A DNA stretch of 22,643 nucleotides, from the IMG/VR virus record IMGVR_UViG_3300043122_000022, positions 1 through 22,643 of that record; one strand, 5' to 3'. The notes under the pieces are model-generated. The model saw only the letters and a list, made by a program, of their open reading frames with translations. It was not told where the DNA came from and did not search any database. The position numbers and the translations under genes are program-made. Within the stretch, counting starts at the first letter, position 1. The number at the start of each line of letters is the position of its first letter. Source of the DNA: a virus. Of this stretch, positions 1 to 20,520 are shown piece after piece.

Positions 1-1321
1 CGACAAGATGAAATCTGATCCGCTGGTTTCCGGCTCCCTTATGATGATCAAGCAATACATTCGTAAGGTGGAATGGGATATTCAGCCAGTTGGTGGTGTC
101 AACGCTTCTGATGAAGATAAAGCTACAGCCGAGATTATCCGTGATGCACTGTTCATGCGAATGGCACGGTCATGGGATCAGGTGGTGGCTGATATATTAT
201 CTTTCATTGAATACGGTTTCTCTTTTCACGAACCAACTTACAAAGTGTATAAAGGGAATTTCATCTGGAAAGATTTTCCTTCCCGATCACAGAAAACAAT
301 CTCTGGCTTTGAATTTGATGAGCGCGGTAATCTTGAGCTAATCAAACAGCGCCCAGCTAATATTGCTGGATTTACACAGAAAGCTACGACAGAGATTCCA
401 ATTCCTTATTCACGACTTCTACATTTCCGCACTGACTCTGAACGAAACAATCCTCTCGGACGTTCTATTCTAAAGAATGCTTACTACGCTTGGGACAAGA
501 AAACCAAGCTAGAGTATTATGAAGCAGTTGGTATTGAGCGTGAAATGAACGGTTTGCCTGTATTCCGTATTCCAATGGAGTACTTCATGGCTGATCCTCA
601 AGAAGATCCAGACCGCTATAAAGTGTTTCAAGACTTCATTCGTATCGGTACTAATGTCCGTAATAATGAACAGGCTTGCTTATTCTTGCCAAGTGATACG
701 GACGAGACATCCAACAAAGAGTTGTTCAACTTCGATCTAGTTGCAAGCCGTGGTACACGTTCTATTGATACCTCTAAAGTGATTGAGCGTTACGACTATC
801 GTATTGCACAGAGTATGTTGTCAGACTTCATTCTGATGGGTTCCTCTTCGAGTGGTTCGTTTGCATTGTCCGATAACAAGATTGGCACATTCATTCAGAC
901 CCTAGAGGCTTATCTGGAAATCATTGCTGAACAGTTTAACCGTAAGGCTATTCCTACGTTGTACAAAATGAACGGTTGGGATGATAGCAAAACGTGTAGA
1001 CTGGTTCATAAGCCAATTGGGGCAGCTAGTTTGGCTGATCTTGGTGGGTACTTGCAAAATATTTCCAGTTATATTGTTGCTGACGCCTCACTAGAGAACG
1101 CACTACGCAAACGTGCTGATCTACCAGAGCGTGACGACAGCAGCACATTCTTGGATACCCCTGTCAATGTCCACCAAGCAATCTCTCAGCGTATTGGTAT
1201 GACCAAGAACGCTGACAAGGAAGCTGCTACAGCATCCCCAGACGAGCTTGCTGAGCAAGATGATGCGATGGTGGACAACCTGATGAAAGCTCTTGACGGA
1301 AACTATCAAGGAGAAGCGTAA
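1..1321 (+). CDS. Phage portal protein, DUF935/Mu gp29-like (5' partial)
   Basis: The portal forms the dodecameric ring at the capsid vertex through which DNA is packaged and to which the neck binds. The family match is by recognition. An early segment reads like the DUF935 'AEIIRDAL...SWDQVVADILSFIEYGFSFHE' stretch, followed by a basic RSQKTI motif, LLHFR with NPLGRSILKNAY around residues 135-155, and the IERE-GLPVFRIP block near residue 180. An ATG lies at position 8, but the frame is open to the left edge and family members have more N-terminal sequence, so I treat the gene as truncated by the window. The stop TAA (1319-1321) overlaps the ATG of the next gene by one base, which suggests translational coupling. 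The terminase should lie upstream, outside the window. I am confident of the portal role and less sure of the subfamily. Confidence 0.85.
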   Translation, partial: DKMKSDPLVSGSLMMIKQYIRKVEWDIQPVGGVNASDEDKATAEIIRDALFMRMARSWDQVVADILSFIEYGFSFHEPTYKVYKGNFIWKDFPSRSQKTISGFEFDERGNLELIKQRPANIAGFTQKATTEIPIPYSRLLHFRTDSERNNPLGRSILKNAYYAWDKKTKLEYYEAVGIEREMNGLPVFRIPMEYFMADPQEDPDRYKVFQDFIRIGTNVRNNEQACLFLPSDTDETSNKELFNFDLVASRGTRSIDTSKVIERYDYRIAQSMLSDFILMGSSSSGSFALSDNKIGTFIQTLEAYLEIIAEQFNRKAIPTLYKMNGWDDSKTCRLVHKPIGAASLADLGGYLQNISSYIVADASLENALRKRADLPERDDSSTFLDTPVNVHQAISQRIGMTKNADKEAATASPDELAEQDDAMVDNLMKALDGNYQGEA

Positions 1322-1776
1322 TGATTGATAAAGACAATATGATTAAAGCCTTCTCCGAATTCCTTGAGAAACACTTTGGTGACACTAAGCAAGTTGAAGT
1401 TGTAAAGGCAGTCAATACAGAAAAACGTATGGCTACATTCGTTGTGCTCAAAGCTATGTCAGACACATCTGATTTTGATGCACATGGCGACTTCTATGAC
1501 CGAGAGACAGTGGAAGATGCTTGCTACAACTTCTACGAGAATTGCATGAAAGCGAATCTGGGTCATCTGGTTATGGTGGACGAAGGTACAGCCAAGATTG
1601 TTGAGTCATACATCATCCCTGTAGACATTGAGCTAGGGGAGCAGCATGTACCAGCAGGTAGTTGGTTACAGACGTGGAAGTTTGCTGATGATGCTCTCTG
1701 GCAAGGTGTTAAGGACGGAGAGTGGAACGGATTGTCTGTAGGCTGTATGGCTAACGTGGAGACACTAGATGGATAA
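1321..1776 (+). CDS. XkdF-like prohead serine protease (N-terminal/catalytic part)
   Basis: Prohead proteases of the XkdF family cleave scaffold and capsid proteins during head maturation. The 151-residue product shows the family pattern: an 'SDFDAHGDFYDRETVEDA' segment near residues 50-67, a histidine in LGH (residue 82), the block IVESYIIPVDIELG (residues 93-106) with E95, a SWLQTWKF strand, and a GLSVG motif with S139 close to the C-terminus. H82, S139 and possibly E95 are the candidate catalytic residues; I infer this from position, not structure. XkdF-type proteins usually continue past the GLSVG motif into a 'slV..pAN' region. Here that region appears in the next ORF, which overlaps by 8 bases. 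The gene is placed between portal and capsid, as expected for a maturation protease. Confidence 0.75.
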   Translation: MIDKDNMIKAFSEFLEKHFGDTKQVEVVKAVNTEKRMATFVVLKAMSDTSDFDAHGDFYDRETVEDACYNFYENCMKANLGHLVMVDEGTAKIVESYIIPVDIELGEQHVPAGSWLQTWKFADDALWQGVKDGEWNGLSVGCMANVETLDG

Positions 1777-2722
1777 GGCTAAAAAGAAACTAACTAAGTT
1801 TGATTTCTCTGGAGCGAATGCGCATGTAGCATTAGTGCATCGTGAACAGAATGGAGCGGCCAATATGTATAAGACGCTCATTACGAAAGCAACAGATGTG
1901 GTTGTAGAGCTGTCTATGAAAGACTTTCTGGAACGATTCTTTTACATGTGGGAAGGAGACGCTAAATTCCTAGCCGATATGCTTGGCTACGGAAAAGACA
2001 TGTCTGAATACACTAGTGAGAAGCGTCAAGAAGAAATGGTGGAAGACCTAGCCGAGCTTATGGAGCATGATCTATATGGCAAGGTGGAGTTGTTACAGAA
2101 AGCTCGTAACGAAGGTGTGGATGCTGTCTCTGACACAGAACGTAAAGAATTAGAAGAGATTGTAAAGTCTCTTGCTAAATTTAGCAACGTAACTATCAAA
2201 GACATTGATAAGTATGCGGCTAAAGATGCTGGCGGGGAATCTCCTGTTAGCGATATTGAGAAAGGCAATGTTGCCGACAATTCCCTCCAAGATAAACAGG
2301 AGAAACCAATGAGCGAAGTAATTGAAAAGAGTGCTGTTGAGGCTCTTATTCAGAAGGCTCTCGAAGAACAGCAGGCAGAGATTCAGAAAGCTGTTGCTGA
2401 AAAAGAAAGCCGCATCGAAGAACTAACTAAATCTCTGGCTCAGTTTGAAGCAGAGAAAGCTGAAGCCAAGAAAGCTGAATATGTAGCCAAGGCTGCTGAC
2501 TTTGAAGTGCTAGGCGTAGAGGATAAAGAATCTTTTGGTGTAGCTCTGATGAAGATGTCTGAACAAGAAGAACTGGCTGGCGTTATGTCTGTGCTGGAAA
2601 AGGCTGTTCAGATTGCTAAGGCTGTAGATGGTCTTGGTGAAGTTGGTCACGACCTTGAGCCAGAAGAAGAACAGATTAGCAAAACTGCCGAGCTTCTCAA
2701 AGCTAAATACGGCAACAAGTAA
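1769..2722 (+). CDS. Protease C-terminal-like and scaffold fusion protein
   Basis: This 317-residue ORF begins inside the end of the protease gene (ATGGATAA overlap) with TAG immediately upstream in its own frame, so the ATG at 1769 is the only possible start. Residues 8-40 contain a VALVHREQNGAANMY segment resembling the 'slV..pAN' tail of XkdF proteases. Residues about 55-150 are acidic and helical. Residues 181-250 are a charged Glu/Ala/Lys-rich coiled coil, and the C-terminus ends in KAKYGNK. A coiled-coil region just upstream of the capsid gene is typical of capsid scaffolds, which direct shell assembly and are then removed by the protease. A strong internal ribosome site precedes Met181 (see the nested feature). 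The scaffold role is inferred from composition and position. Confidence 0.6.
   Translation: MDKAKKKLTKFDFSGANAHVALVHREQNGAANMYKTLITKATDVVVELSMKDFLERFFYMWEGDAKFLADMLGYGKDMSEYTSEKRQEEMVEDLAELMEHDLYGKVELLQKARNEGVDAVSDTERKELEEIVKSLAKFSNVTIKDIDKYAAKDAGGESPVSDIEKGNVADNSLQDKQEKPMSEVIEKSAVEALIQKALEEQQAEIQKAVAEKESRIEELTKSLAQFEAEKAEAKKAEYVAKAADFEVLGVEDKESFGVALMKMSEQEELAGVMSVLEKAVQIAKAVDGLGEVGHDLEPEEEQISKTAELLKAKYGNK
2309..2722 (+). CDS. Nested capsid scaffold protein (in-frame internal start)
   Basis: An in-frame ATG at 2309 (Met181 of the longer ORF) is preceded by AGGAG (2298-2302) with a six-base spacer. This is as good as the ribosome sites of the head genes around it and unusual for a chance internal Met. 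The 137-residue product would be almost entirely the Glu/Lys/Ala coiled coil, as in a free scaffold. The layout parallels phage lambda, where scaffold Nu3 is translated from an internal start within protease gene C. Known: that nested arrangement is common in siphophages. Inferred: that it operates here. Confidence 0.5.
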   Translation: MSEVIEKSAVEALIQKALEEQQAEIQKAVAEKESRIEELTKSLAQFEAEKAEAKKAEYVAKAADFEVLGVEDKESFGVALMKMSEQEELAGVMSVLEKAVQIAKAVDGLGEVGHDLEPEEEQISKTAELLKAKYGNK

Positions 2723-2742
2723 TTTATTAGGAGATTATAAAG

Positions 2743-3147
2743 ATGACTAAAATCGCCACAGAAAACCCACGCATCTCTGATGTTGTTAAGTATGAGCAAG
2801 CTCCTGAACATGGATGGTGCCGTGATGATGTTGTCATCAATGTTGCTGCTGCTGCCGATTACAAGATTGGTACTGTTTTGGGCAAAGTAACCGCAACCGG
2901 TAAATATGTTCCAGTTAATGCCGCTGCAGTTGTTGGTCAGGAAGGTGCTGAGGTTGCTGCCGCTATTCTACTTGAGAACGTCTCTGTAGCTGCCACCACT
3001 GACACCACTGCAACTGCTGCTGTAAACGGAGCAATGATTGTTCGTGATGGTGGTCTGGTGTTTGTAAACACACACAGCACTGCTGAACGTGCTGCTGCTG
3101 TTGCTGCTATTGAAGCTCTAGGCATCAAAACCCGTTCTGGCAACTAA
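2743..3147 (+). CDS. Head decoration protein, lambda gpD-like
   Basis: This 134-residue protein fits the head decoration family (lambda gpD/HDPD), which trimerises on the expanded capsid surface and stabilises it. The pattern is a polar N-terminus, then an Ala/Val/Thr-rich beta fold with YKIGTVLGKVTATGKYVPV near residues 40-60, a G-E-AAAILLE segment and a VNGAMIVRDGGLVFV strand pair near residues 93-108. AGGAG upstream with nine-base spacing supports the ATG at 2743. It lies 25 bases before the capsid gene, the lambda D-E order. Both genes have strong ribosome sites, in keeping with high copy number. Confidence 0.8.
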   Translation: MTKIATENPRISDVVKYEQAPEHGWCRDDVVINVAAAADYKIGTVLGKVTATGKYVPVNAAAVVGQEGAEVAAAILLENVSVAATTDTTATAAVNGAMIVRDGGLVFVNTHSTAERAAAVAAIEALGIKTRSGN

Positions 3148-3172
3148 GAATTATTTTTAAGGAGATTTAATA

Positions 3173-4219
3173 ATGGCAACTGCTCGTGATTTTCAAAACC
3201 CATACCAGCTTACAGACCTAACCAGTGAGATTCAACTGATCCCTAATACTTGGGGTCTGGTTACTCAGATGGGTCTATATTCTGATATTGGCGTATCTAC
3301 CAATACCGTAACTCTCGATAAGGTTAACAACACCCTGACCCTGCTGGGCGATTCCCGCCGTGGTACTCGTCACAACACCGAAGGTGCTAATGAGTCTGTT
3401 GAGACCTATGCGTTCAGCATTCCTCACTTCCAGATCCATGACCGCATTGAGCCAAAAGATCTACAGGGTCGCCGTCGTCCCGGTACTGACAACGAAGCTG
3501 ATACTCTGGCTATGGCCCGTATGCGTAAGCTGGAACGTATGCAGAAGCAAATCGGTATCACCAAAGAATACCTCGCCGTACAAGGCATCAAGGGTAATCT
3601 GGTAACTCCAAATGGTAACACTGTAGCTAACTACTACACCTCTTTTAGCGTATCTCAAAAATCTGTGGATTTTGTTCTGGGTACAGCTACTACAAAGGTT
3701 GGTGATAAGATCGAAGAAGTGATTGCACACATTCAGGACAACATCCTGTCTGGTGATATCGTAAATGATATCGTTGTACTGTGCTCCCCAACCTTCTTCC
3801 AGAAACTGGTTACCCATGCTAAAGTAGAATCTGCTTACCAGTTCTACATGAACACTAATCAGGGCTCTGGCGTTCAGGTGCTGCGTGATCGTCTGGGTTC
3901 TGGTCTGTACCGCTCTTTCTCTCACCAAGGTCTAGTTTTCCTTGAATATAGGGGCGCTTTTACAAAACAGGACGGCACAGTTGAAGCTCTAATTGAAGCT
4001 GATACTGCTTACGCTGTACCAATGGATGTGAGTGCGATGTTTGAGGCTTACAACGGCCCAGCAGATCATCTGGATTTCGTGAATACACTAGGTGAAAGCA
4101 TGTATGCTTGGGAATACACTGACGGACGTGGATTTGGCTACGACATCTTTGCAGAGTTCAATACCCTGCACTTGAACCGGATGCCCCAAGCTGTTGTTAA
4201 GTGTGTAACAAGCAACTAA
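3173..4219 (+). CDS. Major capsid protein, lambda gpE-like
   Basis: This is the major head shell protein. The 348-residue length is normal for the gpE family (HK97 fold). Recognisable features are the N-terminal LTSEIQLIPNTWG segment, an RRGTRHN motif, the HFQIHDRIEPKDLQGRRRPG region around residues 85-105 corresponding to the E-loop/spine region, a long charged helix (AMARMRKLERMQKQIG), a P-domain-like region around residue 190, and the C-terminal half with a Y-VPMD-motif and MYAWEY. The start is fixed by AAGGAG upstream of 3173. Codons are biased toward CTG, GGT and CGT compared with neighbouring accessory genes, as expected for a highly expressed gene. Gene order gpD-gpE confirms the call. 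Confidence 0.9.
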   Translation: MATARDFQNPYQLTDLTSEIQLIPNTWGLVTQMGLYSDIGVSTNTVTLDKVNNTLTLLGDSRRGTRHNTEGANESVETYAFSIPHFQIHDRIEPKDLQGRRRPGTDNEADTLAMARMRKLERMQKQIGITKEYLAVQGIKGNLVTPNGNTVANYYTSFSVSQKSVDFVLGTATTKVGDKIEEVIAHIQDNILSGDIVNDIVVLCSPTFFQKLVTHAKVESAYQFYMNTNQGSGVQVLRDRLGSGLYRSFSHQGLVFLEYRGAFTKQDGTVEALIEADTAYAVPMDVSAMFEAYNGPADHLDFVNTLGESMYAWEYTDGRGFGYDIFAEFNTLHLNRMPQAVVKCVTSN

Positions 4220-4231
4220 GCATTCTTGTCC

Positions 4232-4262
4232 AAAGCCTGTTAGGAAGTTCTTGACAGGCTTT
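4232..4262 (+). terminator. Hairpin behind the capsid gene, possible terminator/processing site
   Basis: AAAGCCTGT (4232-4240) and ACAGGCTTT (4254-4262) form a perfect nine-base inverted repeat around a 13-base loop, 12 bases after the capsid stop codon. Only three T end the stem, so termination would be partial at best. It may mainly protect the 3' end of the capsid message or lower transcription of the following endonuclease gene. Confidence 0.45.
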
Positions 4263-4278
4263 CCGCAAGTGTGTTTAA

Positions 4279-4304
4279 ATAGCCTTTTTATTTAAGGAGG
4301 CTGT
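4279..4304 (+). promoter_or_regulatory. RNA hairpin burying the ribosome site of the first endonuclease gene
   Basis: Bases 4279-4289 can pair with 4294-4304 in eleven consecutive pairs (three of them G-U) around the loop ATTT. The stem contains all of the AAGGAGG ribosome site (4294-4300) and ends at the start codon. The predicted effect is low translation of the endonuclease from long read-through transcripts. The pairing is seen in the sequence; the regulation is inferred by analogy with T4 homing endonuclease genes, whose ribosome sites are hidden in hairpins. Confidence 0.5.
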
Positions 4305-4895
4305 ATGAGAAAAGTATACGGTGTTGGTACAAATGACGCTAATTATAAAGTTACCCAGTACGCAGATGTAGACGGGAAATACACACAAGTCTGGAGGTGT
4401 CCGTATTATAGTGTGTGGAAGCATATGTTATATCGTTGTTACCATCCAGCATACCATAAAAGACAACCAACTTATATTACGTGCACTGTTTGCCCAGACT
4501 GGTTGATTTTCTCGAACTTTAAGAAGTGGATGCAGGAGCAAGACTGGGAAGGTAAACAGTTAGATAAAGACATACTGGTGGATGGTAACTTAGTTTATGG
4601 CCCAGAGTTTTGCGTTTTCGTTGAACAATCTATTAACAAGTTCTTACATGACGTTAAAGGGAGACTTGGGTCTTTAAAATTGGGCGCTCATTTAGATGCC
4701 CGCAAACATAAGTATGTAGCGGCTTGTAGCAACCCCTTTGAGGGTAAGCGTGAGGTGTTGGGTAGATTCGACACTCAACATGAAGCTCACTTAGCTTGGA
4801 AGTCTCGAAAACACGAGCTTGCTTGTATGCTTGCTGATTCTGACTTAGTTACAGATGAGCGTGTAGCACAAGCACTTCGCACAAGGTACTTGTAA
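4305..4895 (+). CDS. Free-standing homing-endonuclease-like protein with AP2-like domain
   Basis: This 196-residue protein belongs to the HNH/AP2-type phage endonuclease-like families. It has the N-terminal pattern W-hM-RCY (YSVWKHMLYRCYHP, residues 36-49), C-DW-FSNFKKW, then a QLDKDIL...VYGPEFCVFV block around residues 85-105 that corresponds to the LD-D...Y-P-NC-W region of such proteins. Residues about 123-170 resemble an AP2 DNA-binding domain (GAHLDARKHKYVAACSN, then LGRFDT-EAHLAWKSRK). A classic HNH triad is not obvious, so nuclease activity is uncertain. The gene sits alone between the capsid and connector genes, looks AT-richer and richer in TTA/AGA codons than the capsid gene, and is bracketed by hairpins. 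This suggests acquisition by homing. It is paralogous to the gene at 7849. Confidence 0.65.
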   Translation: MRKVYGVGTNDANYKVTQYADVDGKYTQVWRCPYYSVWKHMLYRCYHPAYHKRQPTYITCTVCPDWLIFSNFKKWMQEQDWEGKQLDKDILVDGNLVYGPEFCVFVEQSINKFLHDVKGRLGSLKLGAHLDARKHKYVAACSNPFEGKREVLGRFDTQHEAHLAWKSRKHELACMLADSDLVTDERVAQALRTRYL

Positions 4896-4902
4896 CAAAA
4901 CC

Positions 4903-4930
4903 AAAAGCCTCTCTAACCAGAGGCTTCTTT
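4903..4930 (+). terminator. Rho-independent terminator behind the first endonuclease gene
   Basis: AAGCCTCT (4905-4912) and AGAGGCTT (4919-4926) make a perfect eight-base stem with a six-base loop, followed by CTTT on the + strand. On the other strand the stem is followed by TTTTGG, so it may act in both directions. It lies eight bases after the stop codon at 4895. The rest of the gap to 5043 holds no + strand gene that I can support. Confidence 0.6.
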
Positions 4931-5042
4931 AGCCGGAGCCTCCCCCTACACAACACGGAACAAATTCTTCCGGCGTAATATCCAGCAACGACACATCTTC
5001 GTTCACATTACACAATGCTGACATATTCTTTTAGGAGGCTAC

Positions 5043-5510
5043 ATGGCATTCACATTCAACCCAGATTTATCTGACACGATCTCTCAAGTAAGATTCCTTA
5101 TCCAAGATGTGACGGAGGCTGCTCCGTATTTCCAAGACGAAACAATCTCAGCTCTACTGCTCACCAATAACAACCGTGTCCTAGATGCGGCTAAAGGTTT
5201 GGCTCAGGCACTCTGGACACAATATCTACATAAAGCTGATGTGGCTGAAGTAGATGATATTCGTATCGAGTACAGAGATAAAGCTAATCAGTTCAAGATG
5301 CTCTACGAAGAGCTGTCCAAGCAAGCAACCATTGCTAGATCATCTGGCGTACTGCCTATCTTCTTCGGTGGTATTGACCGAGCACAGTTTGATAATACAC
5401 GTAATGATAGCACCACTGTCAAACCATCCTTCACAAAAGGTGGTATTCAATTCGATAAACAATTCCCTGAATTATATCCAGTAGACGAAGAACGATACTG
5501 GCCTAGATAA
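5043..5510 (+). CDS. Head-tail connector (adaptor) protein, gp6/YqbG-like
   Basis: This 155-residue protein has the usual head-tail adaptor opening: an aromatic/Asp start (AFTFNPDLSDTISQVRFLIQD), then a YFQDETISALL segment, a run of Ala-rich helices (DAAKGLAQALWTQYL) and a DDIRIEYRDKANQFKMLYEEL helix near residues 70-95. This matches the four-helix adaptor that sits under the portal. The Gly/Phe-rich C-terminus (VLPIFFGGIDRAQFDN) is typical. TTAGGAGG gives a clear start at 5043. Its place between capsid and completion genes agrees. No catalytic function is expected. Confidence 0.7.
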   Translation: MAFTFNPDLSDTISQVRFLIQDVTEAAPYFQDETISALLLTNNNRVLDAAKGLAQALWTQYLHKADVAEVDDIRIEYRDKANQFKMLYEELSKQATIARSSGVLPIFFGGIDRAQFDNTRNDSTTVKPSFTKGGIQFDKQFPELYPVDEERYWPR

Positions 5511-5538
5511 TAGGCTGGCCTATGTAATCGGAGGGAAT

Positions 5539-5901
5539 ATGTTTAGAGAGAATATCAAGCGTGAAATAGCAAATGCTTGGATAAGAGAATTTGGTTCAAA
5601 CCTAACATCTGTCACATATGAGCGTTCTGCTACAGATGGTGTGTTCGATCCTATTACAGAGTCATATACAGGCGGTACAAACGGTATTGACCAGACAGTG
5701 AATGGAATGTTCCGTAAAATTAAATCCAGCCTAGTCGATAAGCTAAACCTTACAATGGATGATCGTAAGTTCACTATCCTACAGGATGACCTGACATTCA
5801 CTCCAGAAGAGAATGATGTATTAGACGGTGAGTGGCGTGTCGTTAAATATGACGAAGATAATGCCAGTGTCTTTTACAACATCTATGTGAGGCGTGTATG
5901 A
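5539..5901 (+). CDS. Putative head-closure / head-tail joining protein
   Basis: This 120-residue beta-rich protein has a short N-terminal helix (FRENIKREIANAWIREFG) followed by strands with VTYERSATDGVFDPITESYTGG and a C-terminal YDEDNASVFYNIYVRRV. The size, fold character and position between the adaptor and the tail-completion gene fit a head-closure (stopper) protein of the gpFII/gp16 kind. The sequence match is not strong enough to name a family. GGAGGG precedes the ATG at 5539 with short spacing, and the last four bases overlap the next gene, so the two are probably translationally coupled. Confidence 0.5.
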   Translation: MFRENIKREIANAWIREFGSNLTSVTYERSATDGVFDPITESYTGGTNGIDQTVNGMFRKIKSSLVDKLNLTMDDRKFTILQDDLTFTPEENDVLDGEWRVVKYDEDNASVFYNIYVRRV

Positions 5902-6326
5902 ATGGGTGGGATAATCTTGAGGAATGGGTAGAAGAAGCTGCTGAGACTCTTGTTAAGAAGGCTAAGACTGAAGCTGGCGACGAATTCTTACAGGAAGTAA
6001 CATCTCCGACAAACAATTGGAAAGACACCAAGCATTACAACTCCAACGGTAATACACCTGTGCTTGAAGGTAACCTAATGGCAAATACTGAGGTTGGTGT
6101 TAAGACTGCCCCAGATGGTGAGAATCCTTACGAAGATGAGGATGGGAAACAGACCTATCTAAGAGGTATTGCCAAAGTCAGGGCCGCAAATGCTTGGGAC
6201 AAAATATACTTCGTGAACGCTACTGAATACAACATACAGGCAGAGTTTGAAGGCTGGGGAAAATCTGGCCCATACAGATATTGGCAAACATCTTACAACA
6301 ACATGCTGGAGGCTATAAATAAATGA
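5898..6326 (+). CDS. Putative tail-completion / neck protein (HK97 gp10-like position)
   Basis: The 142-residue product begins with an amphipathic helix (NLEEWVEEAAETLVKKAKTEAGDEFLQEV), a common start for HK97 gp10-like or gpZ-like neck proteins. A TPVLEGNLMANTEVGV segment resembling the 'G.L..s' motif and an aromatic C-terminus with FEGWGKSGPYRYW follow. These proteins join the tail to the head. ATG overlaps the previous stop (ATGA) and the stop overlaps the next ATG (ATGA), so three genes in a row are coupled. The assignment rests mainly on position and weak pattern. Confidence 0.5.
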   Translation: MNGWDNLEEWVEEAAETLVKKAKTEAGDEFLQEVTSPTNNWKDTKHYNSNGNTPVLEGNLMANTEVGVKTAPDGENPYEDEDGKQTYLRGIAKVRAANAWDKIYFVNATEYNIQAEFEGWGKSGPYRYWQTSYNNMLEAINK

Positions 6327-6745
6327 ATCTACAGCCTTCTGAAATCCGTTCACACATTATTCAACACATATCTGCAAACTATACAGAGACTCCTGTTGAA
6401 TATCCGCCAAACCCTTTTAAAGAAAACAAAATTACCGAATGGGTGAGTGTCCATATTGACATGGGTGAAGGCTATACAGTGATGAAGGGGCAAGGCACTA
6501 CAACAAGACATCTTGGCCTAATTCATTTTGCTGTAAATGTTAAAAGGATTCAATCTGATCCAAGATCACTTGGTACAAGACGTGTCTATGAAATTGCAGA
6601 TGCTGTGCTTGCTGCAATGGAACGTAAGCGACTAAACGGATCTGCTGTTGTAACTAGAGCAGGACGTGTTGACACATCCGAACTAACAGATAAAACAGGC
6701 GAGATTTCTTTTGCCTTGGTTACAATTCCATTCTTTGTAACGTAA
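6323..6745 (+). CDS. Tail terminator protein (gpU / DUF4128-like)
   Basis: Tail terminators cap the tube to stop polymerisation and provide the head-binding surface. This 140-residue protein shows the expected alpha/beta layout: an N-terminal helix (SEIRSHIIQHISANY), an ENKITEWVSVHIDMGEG strand region, a TRHLGLIHFAVNVKR strand, a GTRRVYEIADAVLAAMERKR helix and a final SFALVTIPFFVT strand. It sits between the completion gene and the tube gene, the standard siphophage order. Four-base overlap with the preceding gene; 93 non-coding bases follow. Confidence 0.65.
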   Translation: MNLQPSEIRSHIIQHISANYTETPVEYPPNPFKENKITEWVSVHIDMGEGYTVMKGQGTTTRHLGLIHFAVNVKRIQSDPRSLGTRRVYEIADAVLAAMERKRLNGSAVVTRAGRVDTSELTDKTGEISFALVTIPFFVT

Positions 6746-6748
6746 AGC

Positions 6749-6774
6749 ATCACTTGTCCATTTGGACAGATGAT
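6749..6774 (+). terminator. Hairpin between tail terminator and tail tube genes
   Basis: Bases 6749-6759 pair with 6764-6774 around the loop ATTT in ten of eleven positions (one G-U, one mismatch), three bases after the stop at 6745. No T-run follows, so it may be an RNA-stability or pausing element rather than a strong terminator. Confidence 0.35.
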
Positions 6775-6793
6775 CCTCCCTGTAGGTAACAGG

Positions 6794-6809
6794 AAACAAT
6801 ATATTGTTT
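6794..6809. promoter_or_regulatory. Perfect 16-base palindrome upstream of the tail tube gene
   Basis: AAACAATATATTGTTT reads the same on both strands and lies 30 bases before the tube start codon. It could be a binding site for a dimeric regulator, part of a promoter region, or an RNA stem in the leader of the highly expressed tube gene. I cannot decide between these. Confidence 0.3.
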
Positions 6810-6838
6810 AAACTTTAAATCTTCTAGGAGAACACTAC

Positions 6839-7786
6839 ATGAGTTCATCTAACCTTGTTTCGGTAAAGTACGTACCGGAAGTTACATACGATACAGTTCC
6901 AGCCAACTCCCCTGATTGGAAATATACACGTTTCACTGGTGAGTCACTGTCTGCCACTGCTGATACAACCACCTCTAGTGAAATCCGCCGTGATCGTTCT
7001 ATCAGTGATATGCCTCTGGTGTCTATCACCACTGGTGGATCTCTTGATATTGAATTCTCTGCTGATACTTTCGATGACTTTATTGAAGCAGCACTAGCCT
7101 CTACTTGGCAAGCCGCTACTCCAGCGATAGGTAGCCAACAGCTCAAGCTAGGTACTGCCGAGTCTTCTTTCTCCGTAGAGAAGCACTTTGAGGACATTAA
7201 CAAGTTCGTCCTCTACTCTGGTATGCGTGTCGGAACCTTCAACCTATCTATGGCTTATGGTTCTATCCTGACAGGCTCTATCGGCTTCGCTGGTGCCTCC
7301 GCATCTACTCCTGCTACCTCTGCTGTAGGTACAGGTTCTGTAGCCTCTGCTACCACTACAGAGGTTCTGAACAGTACTTCTGACTTCGGTACTATTGAGA
7401 TTGGTGGTGTTGCTACTACTATCTGCCTGTCCTCTATGGACATCAGCATTGATAACTCTCTACGTGCAATTGGTTGTATCGGTAGTGCTACTGCTAAAGA
7501 TCAGAAGCTAGGTACTGCTAACATCACTGGTACTATTGAGATTTATCTGGATGCGTCTTCTTTCGCATATTACGAAGCAGCTCTGAACAATACATCTACT
7601 TCCCTGAAGTACACTGTAACTGATGGCACAGATACTTACGAGTTCTTCCTGCCAAAGATTAAACTGTCTTCTGACTCCCCACAGGCATCAAGTCTCGACA
7701 CTGACACAATGGTATCGCTGTCCTACACAGCTCTGTATGACGAAACTGAACAATCTTCTATTGTCATTACAAAAACCACCGCTTAA
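6839..7786 (+). CDS. Major tail tube protein
   Basis: This protein of 315 residues polymerises as hexameric rings around the tape measure to form the tail tube. The N-terminus (SNLVSVKYVPEVTYDTVPANSPDWKYTRFTGESL) is the usual tube opening with a Pro-Asn-Ser-rich loop. It continues with SSEIRRDRSISDMPLVSITTGGSLDIEFSADTFDDFIEAALAS (residues about 45-90), a hallmark of siphophage tube proteins. An Ala/Ser/Thr/Gly-rich stretch lies around residues 145-180, and the end is beta-rich (MVSLSYTALYDETEQSSIVI). CTAGGAG precedes the ATG. Codons are strongly biased, as in the capsid gene. With only this tube gene and no sheath gene, the tail should be non-contractile. Confidence 0.88.
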   Translation: MSSSNLVSVKYVPEVTYDTVPANSPDWKYTRFTGESLSATADTTTSSEIRRDRSISDMPLVSITTGGSLDIEFSADTFDDFIEAALASTWQAATPAIGSQQLKLGTAESSFSVEKHFEDINKFVLYSGMRVGTFNLSMAYGSILTGSIGFAGASASTPATSAVGTGSVASATTTEVLNSTSDFGTIEIGGVATTICLSSMDISIDNSLRAIGCIGSATAKDQKLGTANITGTIEIYLDASSFAYYEAALNNTSTSLKYTVTDGTDTYEFFLPKIKLSSDSPQASSLDTDTMVSLSYTALYDETEQSSIVITKTTA

Positions 7787-7797
7787 GACTTGACAGG

Positions 7798-7850
7798 TAT
7801 AACCTCCTTGTGAGATAGTACAGTTTGACTATTAAGCGAGGAGGTTGTAT
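7798..7850 (+). promoter_or_regulatory. Long RNA hairpin burying the start site of the second endonuclease gene
   Basis: Bases 7798-7811 plus 7797 pair continuously with 7836-7850 (15 pairs including four G-U). This covers AGGAGG (7839-7844) and reaches into the ATG at 7849. An inner stem ATAGT (7815-7819) / ACTAT (7828-7832) caps the structure. Transcripts coming from the tail tube gene would therefore have this start site closed. A transcript beginning inside the hairpin would leave it open. Confidence 0.6.
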
Positions 7851-8595
7851 GGCAAAGTTTGAAGTAGGAGGCGTTTACCCTACACGCACTTACGGTGACA
7901 TAGAGGTCTTAGATAAACGCACAAGGCAATACTTAATCAGGTTTATTAACACTGGGTTTAAAAGATGGGTTAAAGATTCATCTATGTACAATGGTAATTT
8001 AAGAGATCCTTACCATCCTACTGTAGCGGGAATTGGGTATATTGGCGACGGGCAGTATTCTGCACAAGATCGTCAAATCGATAAGCCTTGCTTTGATAGG
8101 TGGTATCACATGATAAATCGTTGTTATAACCCAGAAGAACCTTCATACAAATTCTATGGTGACGTTGGGGTTACCGTGTGTGATGAGTGGCACTGCTTCC
8201 AGAACTTCGCTGAGTGGTATAATAAAAACAGTGTAGATGGTTACGACCTAGATAAAGACTTGTTGTCTAAAGATAGTCGTGTATATGGCCCAAACACATG
8301 TTGCTTTATACCGAGAGAGATCAACAGACTTATTGTATCCGGTAGAAAACGAAAATCTAACAAGCATCTACCGATAGGTGTAATTGTTGGATCAAACGGA
8401 TACAAAGCTAAAGTTAAAAACCACTTTACAGGCAAGGAAGAGTATTATGGCCCTTTCGAGTCATACGAAGAGCCTGCTGAGATTTACAAGAGACGGAAGC
8501 TGGAATTAGTAAGAGAGACCATTGAGTCTTATTACTCTAATGGGCTTCTTTCGGATCTTGCTTACGAAGCACTCCTTCGGTGGGAACCTTGTTAA
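7849..8595 (+). CDS. Free-standing homing-endonuclease-like protein with AP2-like domain
   Basis: This 248-residue paralogue of the gene at 4305 has an extra N-terminal module (MAKFEVGGVYPTRTYGDIEVLDKRTRQ...), a small beta domain seen at the front of other phage HNH/AP2 proteins. The endonuclease-like part shows DRWYHMINRCYNP, YGDVGVTVCDEWHCFQNFAEW, then YDLDKDLL and VYGPNTCCFIP. An AP2-like segment (LPIGVIVGSNGYKAKVKN ... YYGPFESYEEPAEIYKRRK) follows near residues 175-225. I chose the ATG at 7849, not the upstream TTG at 7825, because of the perfectly placed AGGAGG and the family-like N-terminus. The gene is inserted directly behind the tube gene and looks AT-richer than its neighbours. Cutting activity is not proven by visible motifs. 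Confidence 0.65.
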   Translation: MAKFEVGGVYPTRTYGDIEVLDKRTRQYLIRFINTGFKRWVKDSSMYNGNLRDPYHPTVAGIGYIGDGQYSAQDRQIDKPCFDRWYHMINRCYNPEEPSYKFYGDVGVTVCDEWHCFQNFAEWYNKNSVDGYDLDKDLLSKDSRVYGPNTCCFIPREINRLIVSGRKRKSNKHLPIGVIVGSNGYKAKVKNHFTGKEEYYGPFESYEEPAEIYKRRKLELVRETIESYYSNGLLSDLAYEALLRWEPC

Positions 8596-8598
8596 ATT

Positions 8599-8664
8599 AT
8601 AACGGTCAATTTTGACCAAGATTGACTGGCTGGACTAGTTTGCCCGTTATGGTCTGGTCAGTCA
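8599..8664 (+). other. Highly structured intergenic leader before the tail chaperone gene
   Basis: The 106-base gap holds several inverted repeats: ATAACGG (8599-8605) with CCGTTAT (8644-8650), GGTCAA/TTGACC (8604-8617), and TGACTG (8623-8628) with CAGTCA (8659-8664). They cannot all form at once, so alternative folds are possible. A short direct repeat (ACGGGTAA, twice, about 8671-8688) and the GAGGT ribosome site of the next gene follow. No T-run is present. Confidence 0.35.
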
Positions 8665-8701
8665 TTTTAAAACGGGTAAACGGGTAATGAGGTAATACAA
8701 C

Positions 8702-9094
8702 ATGGCATTTACAATCGGTACAGTTGATAAAGCAAAGCAGCAAGACGGTGTTTGGGAAGAGTTTGAAGGTAGTGAGTTTCTCATTGCATATGCTCAGAAC
8801 CCAACCTTCCTGAAAGAGAAGGAACGTCTAGAACGTCCATACAAGCGTCAGATTGAACGCAACAAGATGAATGGTGATGAGCAGAAGCGTATTCTGTGTA
8901 AAGCACTTGCTCATGGTGTGTTGCTGGATTGGCGTGGTGTTACGGACGGCAAGGTTGAGATTGCTTATGACACTGAGATTGCTGCACAAGAATTGCAGGA
9001 CAATCCAGAATTCCTAGAGTTTGTAGTTAATGTCTCTGCTGACGTTGCCAACTACAAGCGCGAAGAGGTAGAACGCAAGGCCAAAAAAAGCTAA
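8702..9094 (+). CDS. Tail assembly chaperone, upstream frame (gpG-like)
   Basis: This 130-residue acidic/basic helical protein lies between the tube and tape measure genes, where nearly all long-tailed phages encode tail assembly chaperones in two overlapping frames (lambda gpG and gpGT). The N-terminus (AFTIGTVDKAKQQDGVWEEF-GSEFLIAYAQNPTFLKEKERLERP) and the middle (LAHGVLLDWRGVTDGKVEIAYDTEIAAQELQDNPEFLEFVVNVS) are typical of this group. The protein coats the tape measure during tube assembly and is not in the virion. The gene ends GCC AAA AAA AGC TAA. The seven-A run is the probable slip site into the next frame. Confidence 0.8.
   Translation: MAFTIGTVDKAKQQDGVWEEFEGSEFLIAYAQNPTFLKEKERLERPYKRQIERNKMNGDEQKRILCKALAHGVLLDWRGVTDGKVEIAYDTEIAAQELQDNPEFLEFVVNVSADVANYKREEVERKAKKS
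9083..9089 (+). promoter_or_regulatory. Probable programmed ribosomal frameshift site (A7), -2 or +1
   Basis: The upstream chaperone reads GCC AAA AAA AGC TAA. The downstream frame is open from 9072 (after a TAG at 9069) and runs through 9431 without interruption. Slipping -2 (or +1) at the A-run puts the ribosome into AAA GCT AAA GAC GCT TTG ATG. A -1 shift would reach TGA at 9103 and is not productive. A -2 shift in tail chaperones is known for phage Mu. Confidence 0.6.
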
Positions 9095-9104
9095 AGACGC
9101 TTTG

Positions 9105-9431
9105 ATGTGGCATCTTGATTGGTCTGAAAAAGAAGATGTCCTTTGGGGCATGTACGAAAAGACTGGTGAGATGCCACCTGCCCTTGTTAATCGTCCTGAT
9201 ATTGATGGTTGGACAAGTTGGTATTTAGATGCGTTCTTCCTCCTATCCAATTCAAGACAAACAGGTATGAGTGTCGGCAAGATACCATTGTCTGAGATGA
9301 CAAACTACGCAATGGTGTTTGATACGTTGGGTGAAGATGTTAAAGACTTTTGCTTGATTTTATCTAGGCTAGACTCAGCCTACTTAGAATGGTTGGATAA
9401 GAAGAAACCTAAGAAGGGGGCTGCTAAATGA
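9105..9431 (+). CDS. Tail assembly chaperone, downstream (T) part of the frameshift product
   Basis: This frame encodes the C-terminal 'T' half of the chaperone fusion, which in lambda binds the tube protein while the G half binds the tape measure. The residues fit the group: HLDWSEKEDVLWGMYEKTGEMPPAL, then DIDGWTSWYLDAFFLLSNSRQTGM, GKIPLSEM-NYAMVFDTLGEDVKDFC and a Lys-rich end. The ATG at 9105 has no credible ribosome site in front of it (only AAAG), and the frame is open back to 9072 across the A-run. It is therefore probably made mainly as a fusion by frameshifting. Coordinates start at the first ATG by convention. The tape measure gene follows after 57 bases. Confidence 0.75.
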   Translation: MWHLDWSEKEDVLWGMYEKTGEMPPALVNRPDIDGWTSWYLDAFFLLSNSRQTGMSVGKIPLSEMTNYAMVFDTLGEDVKDFCLILSRLDSAYLEWLDKKKPKKGAAK

Positions 9432-9488
9432 CATACGTTGTTGGCTGTCCCCTTTTTCTTTGCCCTAAATTCACGATAGGAATATAAC

Positions 9489-12400
9489 ATGGCAGATGAG
9501 AAAAGATTACAATTAGTTATAGACCCGTCTAGAGCCAAGAGCGGGGCAAAGGTTGCAAAGGATGCTGTTCTATCTGTAGAGGCTGCTGCGGATAAAGCAA
9601 CAAAGGCTTTAGCTAAACTAGAACGCGTTATCTTGTCAGGAAGCTCTCCTCTAGACAAACTGAACAAAGCTATTGGACACGTTGTTAATGTGAACCAAAA
9701 GATGCTGAAGTCTATAAATGACCTATCAGCAAAACTAGATGGCGTGAACACATCTGTCCGTAATGGCGCACAAGGACTAACCAACTGGGAGAAGTCTTTA
9801 GAACGTGCCAAGGACAAGACAGCCATGCTCAACTCTGAGCTAGGTAGGCAGCTTGTCGCAGAGAAACAATTACATGCAGAATTAACTAAGCAGATTAAGG
9901 TTGGTTCAGATCGTATTAACCAACTATCTGCTCAAGAGATGGCCCAAAAGAAACTAGCCGACTCTGTAGCCTTCTGGACTCAACGTACTAAGGATCTAAA
10001 CTCTGAAGAATATAAATCCCTTGTACAGATGCGGGAGAAAGCACGTCAGCTAGAGGCTTATGAGAAGTCTATGGTGGATGGATTATCTACTACGCAAAAG
10101 GCTGCTAAGGCTGAGAATGAACTACGCAAGGCTATTGAGCGTGGTAAGATTGAGCTAGACCAGTATGAGAGTGGATTGGCTCAAAAGAATATCGAGATGC
10201 AGGAGAGCATTGCTATCCAGCGTAGGCTAGCTCAGTCTGAAGCTAGATTGAAAGCTACAATGGATGGTACATATGACACTATCATCAAGAATGAAGCTGC
10301 TATAAGGAAATATAAGCGAGAGCTGCTTGGTCTAGAAGATGCGAATAACCGGCTCAACAGGTCAAACAGAGATTTAAGCCAAGGTTTTACTGCTCTAGGT
10401 GGTGCTCTTGGTACAATTACAGGAGCATACGCCGTAACTGAGGTGGTTCGCCTAGCTGATGCTTATAAAGCAGTTGGAAACAGAGTTGCTGTGGTGACGG
10501 GCACTACTGAAGGCTTATCAGAGAGTATTGCTGCGTTGTTTAAAGTGTCTGTTAAATCACGTACTGAGTTGGATGCCACAGTTGATGTGTATACCAAAAT
10601 GACTCGCGCAAACGAGCAACTGGGATATTCACAACAAGAAGTCCTCCGTATAACAGAGACTGTATCAAAAGCAGTGGCGATGTCGGGTGCATCTGTGCAA
10701 GGTGCACAAGGTGCGTTGCTACAATTTGCACAGGCAATCAGTGGTAACTTCCAAGCATCTGCACAAGAACTTAACAGCATCATTGAACAGGCACCTGCTC
10801 TTGGTGCTGCAATGGCTGACGCACTCAACACAGTTAATCCTGAACTGAACGCAACCATTGGTAATCTAAAGGCTCTTGCTAAAGAGGGTAAGATAACTTC
10901 AGCAGATCTCCTTCAAGGTTTCCTCAATATCTCAGATGAGATTGATGGAGTATTTAGTGCCTCAACGGAGTTGGTTGCAGAACGCTGGCGGAATGTAGTA
11001 GATGCTATTACAATTTACATCGGGGAGACAGACAAAGCTCTTGGTATAACTAACAGAATCTCCGCAGTGTTAAAAGACTTTTCACTGAATATAAAACAGT
11101 ACGCCGATGAAATTGATGCCGTACTACTAGGGATTGGCGCAGCGCTTGGTGTTGTTACAATTGCACTTGGTGCATTCATTGTGAGTATTGCAGCGATCCC
11201 GTTGTTAATAGCCGGTGTTGTCGGAGGCGCTGTCGGTAGTATATACTATTTCAGAGATGAAATTTCAAACACACTCAAGGAGATTGAATTAGCATTTTAT
11301 GAAACACTGCTGCAAGATATACCTGCTGTGTTCTCTGATGCTGGTAGTGCATTGATTGAAGGGTTTGCTAGTTATTTAGAGTATGGTGCACAACCAATAG
11401 AATCACTGCTAGACATTGTTTTTAAAGCCGTTGACAAGATAGCAGATGCGTTTGAAGGAAGCATCTTACAGAGTGCCCTCACTACATTCGGTATGAGATT
11501 CCAGTTAGTAGGTAAACAAATCCAATTATTCTTTGCAGAAGTATGGTCTAATATCCTATCTGGATTGGAGTCCATGATCAATTCCGCTGTATGGATGCTA
11601 AACAAATTCATACAAGAAACCATCTACAAACTAAACCAGATTCGTGACTTCATTGGTAAAGATGCTTTAGTTGTAGATGCAATCACTCCTGTAATCTTCT
11701 CATCTGATGCAAAGAAAAATGTAGAAGACTTGCGTGGGGAGATTGAACGCCTCAGCGGGGATATAAATACACAAGCTGATGTTACGCAGAGGTTAATTGA
11801 TGAGGAGAAGGAGGACTTACAGCTTAAAAAGGATATAGCAGAGTGGGCGTCTTTTGCTGGTGACGCCACTATAACATTTTCCAACTCTAACAATATTCTA
11901 TCTGACTCATTAGGTGGCTCTAATAAAGAACTAGAAAAACTAAAGGATGCCTTTATTGAGCTAGAGGACGAAGCACTCTCCCCAGTAGAAAAGCAGCAAA
12001 AAGAACTAGCCAAGATTTGGAACACACTTGTTAAAGGTGGTAAACTTCTAGGTAGATCCACGGACGAGATTAACAAGATATTCGTCAAACACGCAATGGA
12101 AATATCTGGTGCAAATGATCGCCTAGAAGAGTTGCGTGACACCTATAAAGAAATCACTTACCAAATGAATCCAGCCCTCGAAATCCAAGAAAAGATGATT
12201 GAGGCGGAACGTGCATTTAACCAAGCTGTTGCTGTTGGTAGTGAAAATATAGCTGATAAAGAACAATGGCTAGACCGCTACCGTAGAAGTATTGACGGGA
12301 CAGATGACCGTCTACAAGCACTCCAAGAGACCATAGCCGACACATTCATGGATGGATTTGAGGCTGCAATGGAAGGTGGCGAAGAGTTTAAGGATTGGTT

Positions 12401-18779: not shown

Positions 18780-18783
18780 GGCT
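18772..18783 (+). other. Small GTAA-loop hairpin just behind VR2
   Basis: AGCC-GTAA-GGCT forms a four-base stem with a GNRA-type tetraloop 14 bases after VR2; the fibre stop codon TAA lies in the loop. In the Bordetella phage DGR a longer hairpin a few bases behind VR is needed for efficient homing. The match here is short, so this is tentative. Confidence 0.3.
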
Positions 18784-18808
18784 GTCTCTTAACACTAATA
18801 TCTAATGT

Positions 18809-18848
18809 GTGCGCGTTCAATGGCGGGGCTTGTCCCCGTCTAGCGCAC
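18809..18848 (+). other. Two-tiered GC-rich hairpin between fibre and avd genes
   Basis: Outer stem GTGCGC (18809-18814) / GCGCAC (18843-18848) encloses an inner stem CGGGG (18824-18828) / CCCCG (18834-18838) with loop CTTGT, extendable by GG/TC. It lies about 50 bases behind VR2 in the only gap between fibre and avd and has no T-run. It could be the DGR homing hairpin, an RNA processing site, or an attenuator for avd-RT. Confidence 0.5.
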
Positions 18849-18868
18849 TATTAACAAGGATATTTAAC

Positions 18869-19240
18869 ATGGTTGCAAGTGGGCTGCTTGTATTCTCCAA
18901 AGCAGAGTCGCTGTTCTACAAGATATACCCGTCTTTAATTAACTACCCTCGTGGTGAAAAATACTCTGTAGTTGCAGCGATTAAGGAGAATTTCATAGGA
19001 TTCTTAACAAAAATAAACCAAGCAAATGCTGTCAAGTCTAAACGTATCGTTTACTTACAAGAAGCTGATGCTTGTTTACAAACTTTAAAAATGCTATTCA
19101 GATTGTCACTTAACAGGAAATTCATAAAACAAGCATTTTTCGAAGATATTTCAGAATCTCTCACAGAGATAAACAAACTACTGGTTGGTTATTTTAAAGC
19201 GTCTTCTAGTAAAGATTACAAATCCAACTTCAGCAAATAA
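18869..19240 (+). CDS. avd: DGR accessory variability determinant (Avd-like)
   Basis: This 123-residue helical protein matches the Avd family, barrel-shaped pentamers of four-helix bundles that bind the reverse transcriptase and template RNA and are required for mutagenic homing. Visible signatures: an N-terminal helix ending in NYPRGEKYS (compare YPKSERF in relatives), an amphipathic helix (VAAIKENFIGFLTKINQAN), the YLQEADACLQTLKMLFRLS helix around residues 62-80, and a C-terminal ISESLTEINKLLVGYFKA helix. It is basic, as expected for nucleic acid binding. I chose ATG 18869 over the in-frame GTG at 18809 because AAGGA lies just upstream and the extra 20 residues are not family-like. It sits between target and TR, the classic order. 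Confidence 0.88.
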   Translation: MVASGLLVFSKAESLFYKIYPSLINYPRGEKYSVVAAIKENFIGFLTKINQANAVKSKRIVYLQEADACLQTLKMLFRLSLNRKFIKQAFFEDISESLTEINKLLVGYFKASSSKDYKSNFSK

Positions 19241-19521
19241 CTAGGTTTAGGATTAACAACTATCACCTCCAATCGTGTCAATCGTGGCAATGATCGTCTT
19301 TCTAACTTGAATTCGAACACGTCCTCGAATGTGAATACCGACAACGGCTGGCTGCCCTACTGATTTTGATTTAATGATAGGCACTTGGTTACGACTAGGT
19401 GTCCAAGATCAAGTATTTTGATAAGGGGTTGTTAATCCTGTGCGTTATGCACGAATACATAAACAGCAGGTGCACTCACCCATAGAGGACATTGTGCCTG
19501 TGCAATTCATTAAGGGATTTT
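19241..19521 (+). ncRNA. DGR template RNA with structured 3' spacer
   Basis: The 281-base gap between avd and RT holds TR and a 165-base spacer. In the Bordetella phage system TR RNA together with its downstream spacer binds RT-Avd and primes cDNA synthesis. The spacer here is rich in stems: GG-CACTTGG (19380-19388) with CTAGGTG-T-CC (19395-19404) around loop TTACGA; ATCAA/TTGAT (19408-19422); GGTG/CACC near 19469; and an ATTGTGC/GTGCAAT-type stem near 19491-19506. No separate promoter is evident, so the RNA may come from transcripts reading through from the fibre. Exact ends are unknown. Confidence 0.6.
19264..19356 (+). repeat. DGR template repeat (TR)
   Basis: This is the master copy from which adenine-mutagenised cDNA is made. 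It has 23 adenines, 20 of them in nine AAT/AAC and two GAT/GAC codons (in the frame of the fibre). Those are exactly the codons that vary in VR1 and VR2. AAY codons can become 15 different amino acids by changes at the two A without ever giving a stop. The three remaining A (in ACC, ACG, ACC) are unchanged in both VRs. The left boundary is taken at CACCTCC, where similarity to both VRs begins. The right boundary is GGCTGGCTGCC, after which TR and VRs diverge. Confidence 0.93.
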
Positions 19522-20520
19522 ATGTTTGACGGGATTGTTAGTTGGGATAATTTGCTAGATGCTTACAACAAGACACGTAAGGCGAAAGGTAAGCACAAGG
19601 TTGCTGCAATAAGATTTGAACAAAACGCTATACACAATCTTAAAATACTACAACAGTCGTTGATAGATGGTACTTACAAGTGTTCTGGTTACAACACATT
19701 CATGGTGTATGAACCAAAACCTCGTGTGATATATGCACCACACTACGTTGACAAGATTGTTCAACATGCAATCAACAATGTCATACGTGACCACTTAGAG
19801 CCTAAGTTTATACACGACAGCTATGCTTGTATTCGTGGAAAAGGTACTCACAGAGCAATACTGGCTATCCAGAAACATGCGAGAGTGTGTAAGCGTAACT
19901 ATGGCGACAAGTGTTATTTTGCCAAGACTGACATATCTAAATTCTTTTACACAATAGACAGAGGTGTTCTAAAGAGAATTGTTGCTAAGAAGATCCCTTG
20001 TGTCAGAACACAGGAGTTGTTAAACATTGTCATAGATAGTAGCCCTAGTGATGGACTACCACTTGGAAACCTGACAAGTCAGATATTAGCAAACCTCTAT
20101 ATGAACGAGCTTGACCAATACATCAAACGACATCTTAAGGTACGGCATTATGTAAGATATGCCGATGATTTGTTTATGGTGTGTAAAGATAAGTCTGAAG
20201 CTAAACGTATGTTACTACTTGTTAGGAAAGCAGCAAAAGACATCCTGCACTTAGACACAAGTGATAAGAAATCCTTTGTAACACCTGTTGCTGGAGGTAT
20301 TGTAGGACTTGGTTGCAAGATATTCACGACACACATATCGCTACTCTACAAACACAAACGTGGAATTATCAGATGCTTACAATCAGTTAAATCTATAAAG
20401 TCTTGGCTGTCATTCACGTCAGTAATGAACCGATACAATTTCATCAAGAGGATATTACCAGATGATTTACTTCCAAAACAACGAAGCGCAATTCTACACA
20501 ACAAAAGCTATATTCACTGA
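19522..20520 (+). CDS. DGR reverse transcriptase
   Basis: This 332-residue RT copies TR RNA into adenine-mutagenised cDNA. Motifs in order: PRVIYAPHYVDKIVQHAINNVI (residues 67-88, finger motif; the PR-I-P-D-VQ pattern of this RT class), a SYACIRGKGTHRAI block (100-113), KTDISKFF with D137, GLPLGNLTSQILANLYMNELD (178-198), and RYADDLF with catalytic D215 and D216. LPLGNLTSQ is the DGR-type form of motif 4; group II intron RTs have a different sequence there. No maturase or endonuclease domain is present. I chose ATG 19522 (AAGGGA just upstream), not TTG 19492. The last 59 bases overlap the next gene in another frame. It is close to the Bordetella phage RT in size. Confidence 0.95.
   Translation: MFDGIVSWDNLLDAYNKTRKAKGKHKVAAIRFEQNAIHNLKILQQSLIDGTYKCSGYNTFMVYEPKPRVIYAPHYVDKIVQHAINNVIRDHLEPKFIHDSYACIRGKGTHRAILAIQKHARVCKRNYGDKCYFAKTDISKFFYTIDRGVLKRIVAKKIPCVRTQELLNIVIDSSPSDGLPLGNLTSQILANLYMNELDQYIKRHLKVRHYVRYADDLFMVCKDKSEAKRMLLLVRKAAKDILHLDTSDKKSFVTPVAGGIVGLGCKIFTTHISLLYKHKRGIIRCLQSVKSIKSWLSFTSVMNRYNFIKRILPDDLLPKQRSAILHNKSYIH

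Follow-up and report, generated by a model that had tools for sequence, protein, structure and literature searches.

Hairpin leaders with predicted embedded host-type promoters as probable translation switches of two inserted HNH nuclease genes in a tailed phage

Why would two nuclease genes of a phage each carry a Shine-Dalgarno (SD) sequence for the ribosome that would be folded away in a hairpin directly ahead of the start codon? The question arises in a viral DNA of 22,643 nucleotides (IMG/VR record IMGVR_UViG_3300043122_000022), the whole of which we call the window. An initial annotation had read the hairpins as silencing of invasive genes and had placed these genes behind the capsid and tail tube genes. 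The neighbouring genes are indeed of these two types, and each nuclease gene is part of an inserted unit:

3173-4219, plus strand: major capsid protein gene, upstream of unit 1 (Phage_cap_E, E = 3.2e-66)
4278-4929, plus strand: inserted unit 1, comprising hairpin leader, HNH ORF and 3' hairpin
4305-4895, plus strand: HNH endonuclease-type gene 1, 196 residues (phrog_953, E = 2.4e-84)
4903-4928, plus strand: 3' hairpin of unit 1, AAAAGCCTCTCTAACCAGAGGCTTCT, common to the T5orf172 alleles described below; its U-rich tail is better on the minus strand
6839-7786, plus strand: tail tube protein gene, upstream of unit 2 (Phage_tube_2, E = 7.4e-44)
7796-8617, plus strand: inserted unit 2, comprising hairpin leader, HNH ORF and 3' hairpin
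7849-8595, plus strand: HNH endonuclease-type gene 2, 248 residues from ATG 7849 (phrog_953, E = 5.5e-53; phrog_2081, E = 2.8e-48)

The insertions were recognised from relatives, found as viral contigs with 93-100% identical capsid or tube proteins. In L013, L014 and L015 (capsid protein 93-97% identical), unit 1 is absent and the sequence goes from window position 4277 straight to 4930. Unit 2 is absent from L013, L017 and L018, in which window 7795 to 8618 is replaced by about 60 other bases. Both sites show presence/absence polymorphism at a fixed position among close relatives, and the finding of empty alleles for each bears out the earlier claim of two separate insertions. At each site the hairpin is the first part of the inserted sequence, which makes the leader a component of the unit.

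Judged by their profile matches, both genes belong to the HNH endonuclease family phrog_953, and homing activity may be presumed for both. They had been called paralogues; the shared family agrees with this, but the relationship is a distant one, since the proteins align over their common part only (about 33% identity over about 144 residues). The TTG at 7825, given as the start of gene 2 in the ORF list, is less likely than ATG 7849. Neither protein has a match in Pfam or NCBIfam, and AP2 is present in five of 24 relatives. The model of the gene 2 protein (pLDDT 88) suggests a Tudor/SH3-like N-terminal part and an AP2-like C-terminal part; only these parts matched solved structures (PDB Foldseek, VIA), with no confident match for the nuclease core.

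Beyond unit 2, a tail assembly chaperone gene (8702-9094) is followed directly by an ORF (9102-9431) ahead of the tape measure gene, where programmed frameshifts are usually located. Further downstream, 16092-20520 holds a diversity-generating retroelement:

16092-18779: target ORF, with variable repeats at 17918-18010 and 18665-18757
18809-19240: Avd gene (phrog_3206)
19264-19356: template repeat
19492-20520: reverse transcriptase gene (RVT_1, E = 2.1e-22)

The structures around the two ribosome sites are as follows:

4231-4262, plus strand: predicted stem-loop 3' of the capsid gene, also present in empty alleles; its 3' half holds the -35 element TTGACA of promoter 1
4279-4304, plus strand: hairpin 1, arms 4279-4289 and 4294-4304 (11 bp), loop AUUU at 4290-4293
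4294-4300, plus strand: SD of gene 1, AAGGAGG, within the 3' arm of hairpin 1; start ATG 4305
7797-7850, plus strand: hairpin 2, arms 7797-7811 and 7836-7850 (15 bp)
7814-7819 and 7828-7833, plus strand: inner stem of hairpin 2 (6 bp)
7839-7844, plus strand: SD of gene 2, AGGAGG, within the 3' arm of hairpin 2; start ATG 7849

The positions and pair counts in the initial annotation (11 pairs; 15 pairs and an inner stem) are exact, and the folding that it proposed as a check leaves the SD paired in both leaders. The z score of the fold is -2.3 for site 1 alone, -5.4 for site 1 with the upstream capsid gene (MCP) hairpin, and -4.8 for site 2. When the SD was held fixed and the upstream sequence was dinucleotide-shuffled (2000 shuffles per site), the stem of hairpin 2 was matched by none of the shuffles and that of hairpin 1 by 107, or about 5%. 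Uninterrupted stems covering the SD score 9.5 at site 1 and 13 at site 2, compared with at most 5.5 for the other window genes tested. Opening the SD of gene 2 is predicted to cost 20.0 kcal/mol, more than in any of 415 phage control genes whose SD has five or more bases. The corresponding value for gene 1 is 7.5 kcal/mol, which is at the 97th percentile of these controls, with 11 of them higher, among these the native window gene at 6323 with 8.4 kcal/mol. Site 2 is exceptional by itself; site 1 is modest alone and needs comparative support. The leaders have no match in Rfam. A terminator reading of the hairpins was rejected: no U tract lies 3' of either, and no plus-strand terminator is predicted in positions 1-10000, so that read-through from the structural genes would be expected.

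The stem scores uphold the claim that flanking genes show no comparably close pairing. In its stronger form, that all of their ribosome sites are open, the claim fails at native gene 5043, whose SD is paired in long context through a helix of AGCCTCC (about 4936-4943) with GGAGGCT (about 5034-5041). The SD of this gene, AGGAGGCT, thus has its complement about 95 bases upstream, just past insertion point 1 (window 4930-5060), and the empty alleles L013 and L014 retain the complementarity. For L015, a start from the native promoter is predicted to land within the AGCCTCC arm, which makes a native long-range counterpart of start-dependent SD logic possible at gene 5043.

The key feature, missed by the initial annotation, is the position of promoter-like sequences relative to the hairpins:

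4251-4280, plus strand: predicted promoter 1, sigma70-type, TTGACA-18-TTAAAT with TG before the -10; second-best plus-strand site of the window
about 4287, plus strand: predicted start 1, within hairpin 1
7790-7819, plus strand: predicted promoter 2, sigma70-type, TTGACA-18-GATAGT with TG before the -10; best plus-strand site of the window
about 7826, plus strand: predicted start 2, between the arms of hairpin 2

The ranks come from a weighted scan of all 22.6 kb, which uses E. coli hexamer frequencies and a bonus for an extended -10. Without the bonus, the sites at 7790 and 4251 remain in the top three; a simple promoter scan of 10 kb also listed 7790 as one of its top two sites. The same two sites are again the two best promoter matches in L012. 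As scores these values are not exceptional for a sequence of such length (shuffled sequence gives a mean best of 13.8), and the argument for the putative promoters is one of position, not score: both predicted starts would fall inside the hairpins by chance with a probability of about 5e-6 for random positions in the window, or about 0.002 if only intergenic DNA is considered. A reading of site 1 as a T4 late promoter, based on the resemblance of TTTAAATA at 4274-4281 to TATAAATA, was dropped, as this element is lost in the L012 and L018 alleles while TTGACA is kept. The candidate promoters are thus of the sigma70 type, TTGACA-18, and not phage middle or late promoters.

The -35 element is the same in the empty alleles at site 2 and in most of them at site 1, where L013 has CTAACA; their overall promoter matches are weaker. 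In filled alleles, the -10 lies within the leader at 18-base spacing, and the score is above that of the empty alleles. Because the empty alleles share the -35 and match less well overall, the units seem to have entered native intergenic promoters, with the -35 kept and the -10 supplied or reshaped.

Taken together, these features lead us to propose that each leader is probably a translation switch, dependent on transcript start, of a mobile free-standing gene of the HNH homing-endonuclease type. A long RNA reading through from the capsid or tail tube gene would contain both arms; the hairpin would fold, the SD would be hidden, and the nuclease would not be translated alongside the abundant structural message. 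Initiation at the embedded promoter would yield an RNA that lacks all or most of the 5' arm, since its predicted start lies inside the hairpin, and with the anti-SD arm gone the SD would be open and the nuclease translated. The predicted opening cost of the SD falls from 9.8 kcal/mol in the long RNA to 2.9 kcal/mol in the RNA from the predicted start at site 1, and from 19.8 to 3.3 kcal/mol at site 2; if the site 1 start is moved four bases earlier, a short stem still pairs much of the SD (P = 0.81). This drop, the expected read-through and the like arrangement of the T4 I-TevI leader make start-site-dependent translation the likely mechanism; read-through transcription, activity of the embedded promoters and the effect on translation are inferred. 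A host-type promoter points to expression that is early, or constitutive at a low level, in place of the late expression known from T4.

The closest competitor is the plain silencing of the initial annotation. Here the nucleases would be nearly off on all transcripts, and TTGACA would be a native promoter remnant serving the downstream structural genes or nothing. The hairpins are indeed predicted to block translation from read-through RNA, and empty alleles do have promoter-like sequence at the same -35. However, the -10 in the leader of the filled alleles outscores that of the empty alleles at its 18-base spacing, and the predicted starts sit exactly where the 5' arm would be lost. We consider plain silencing rather unlikely. 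Its first half stands, in that the read-through message is predicted to be off; the other half is not supported, given the good match to a sigma70-type promoter within each hairpin. Since this promoter would remove the 5' arm, the anatomy is that of a conditional switch, off on read-through and on from its own short message, and 'switch' fits better than 'silencing', which covers only half of it.

The comparative support for site 1 comes from an exchange of ORFs behind the leaders. The HNH gene is carried at site 1 by the window, L001, L002, L009 and L010. L011, L012 and L016 have instead, behind a nearly identical hairpin, a 415-residue zinc-module gene of the T5orf172/GIY-YIG type (the L011 contig stops within it), and in L018 a 228-residue T5orf172-type gene follows a diverged hairpin, ATACTCTTTTCT/AGGAGGGAGTAT. 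At site 1, the sequence identity of the window with L012 ends after the third codon and returns at the 3' hairpin. The L012 allele of site 2 holds a diverged HNH gene, 46% identical; the hairpin ahead of it differs at three stem positions, each time with a Watson-Crick pair where the window has G-U. Thus, three different nuclease ORFs occur at site 1 (HNH and two T5orf172/GIY-YIG types) and two at site 2, all with an SD-blocking hairpin, and the SD is covered by pairing in every allele examined at both sites. The L018 leader forms a 12-bp SD stem from different bases (matched by 45 of 2000 shuffles). Strict compensatory covariation was rejected here: the rebuilt helix is two bases out of register, and the alignment columns therefore do not correspond; as read from the sequence, it is evidence for keeping a helix, not for column covariation. 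L018 also has a clearly different capsid ORF (1303-2319) upstream of its site 1 leader and downstream genes about 91% identical to those of the window, which places an exchange border near the nuclease gene. The initial annotation had left open whether the hairpins were convergent or inherited; both seem to apply, at different levels. Within a site the hairpin is kept among alleles, and between sites the differences of the hairpins in sequence and loop favour convergence.

The L018 leader also bears on the idea that hairpin 1 arises mostly as a side effect of a purine-rich SD opposite a T-rich leader, with a true regulator at site 2 only. The ease with which shuffled sequence reaches hairpin 1 and its unexceptional opening energy speak for this. 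Nevertheless, we regard it as improbable, as the diverged leader keeps an SD stem with other bases, and promoter position and architecture at site 1 match those of site 2 and of T4 I-TevI. Still less probable is a role of the hairpins in the processing or stability of the RNA, for example as RNase sites splitting the structural from the nuclease message, with SD burial secondary and cleavage perhaps freeing the SD: the long near-perfect duplex at site 2 and the reviewed RNase E processing near T4 segB, segG and Aeh1 mobE (PMC2988022) would suit it, but a processing site would not require the SD to be covered in every examined allele of both sites.

Returning to the switch, a tentative extension, which we hold possible and no better than that, is that the conserved unit is an expression cassette of promoter-in-hairpin leader and 3' hairpin, into which unrelated ORFs (HNH, T5orf172/GIY-YIG) are swapped; its host-type promoter would then give early or low constant nuclease, off from late structural transcription, the reverse of T4.

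We surveyed 90 nuclease genes and 719 control genes for a stem scoring 7 or more that has an internal promoter scoring 11 or more. The combination occurs in seven nuclease genes and no controls. Of the seven, five come from the window group, as alleles of sites 1 and 2, and are not independent because they were found first. The remaining two are from L039, an unrelated contig whose HNH gene adjoins terL and has a 14-bp hairpin with TTGACA-18-TATATT, and from the window relative L135, whose GIY-YIG-type gene lies at terS/terL. Without the window-group alleles the count is 2 versus 0 (p = 0.011), and for the unrelated phage alone 1 versus 0 (p = 0.1). A family-wide claim for the hairpin was rejected, as most of the roughly 60-90 related nuclease genes are without an SD hairpin; L075 was rejected as a further case, having a better start codon upstream, ATG 2983, inside the hairpin loop. 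The terS/terL junction is a third exchange site, with different GIY-YIG-type genes in three contigs and none in L134:

L135, 1426-2448: GIY-YIG-type gene at terS/terL
L136 (reverse complement), 8662-9570: GIY-YIG-type gene at terS/terL
L138, 3969-4892: GIY-YIG-type gene at terS/terL

The genes of L136 and L138 overlap the upstream gene and are not among the hairpin cases.

The likeness to T4 homing endonucleases drawn by the initial annotation is well founded, as SD-sequestering hairpins have been reviewed for I-TevI, I-TevII, I-TevIII, segB and Aeh1 mobE (PMC2988022). In the three I-Tev genes, the SD lies in the 3' arm of a hairpin on upstream-initiated RNA, and a promoter is placed so that its RNA is without the 5' arm (PMC2988022). 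As a positive control, the leader of T4 I-TevI was put through the same calculation: its SD hairpin costs 12.1 kcal/mol to open, and a late-promoter-like element lies at -31. The window resembles I-TevI in having the SD in a stable hairpin on the long RNA (strong at site 2, moderate at site 1) and, by sequence, a predicted promoter positioned for an RNA without the 5' arm. It differs in that the T4 genes use middle or late phage promoters in an intron setting, whereas the window genes are free-standing and have host-type TTGACA. In phages whose transcription relies on the host RNA polymerase, sigma70-like promoters count as early or middle (PMC7344957), so the timing here may be reversed relative to T4. 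Free-standing endonuclease genes with SD-sequestering hairpins are also known in Aeh1 mobE and T4 segB (PMC2988022, PMC3014915); unlike those T4-like phages, the window phage has a capsid of the Phage_cap_E type, and no T4-type late promoter is conserved across its alleles. In the HEG-islands of Vibrio phages, unrelated nuclease classes swap at one place beside capsid and tail genes, and the T5orf172 nucleases carry CapR-like zinc modules (PMC10448857). The window and its relatives share both features; the main text of that paper says nothing of hairpins, promoters or ribosome sites, whereas in the present group the leader and 3' hairpin stay and the ORF changes. If our reading is right, RNA gating of homing endonucleases is no peculiarity of T4 but is met again, on host-type promoters, in other tailed phages, and its outlasting of nuclease replacement would point to selection that shields invasive genes from high-level transcription of structural genes. 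The window leaders look as if they work like the T4 system, with an ordinary host-type sigma70 promoter in place of the late promoter.
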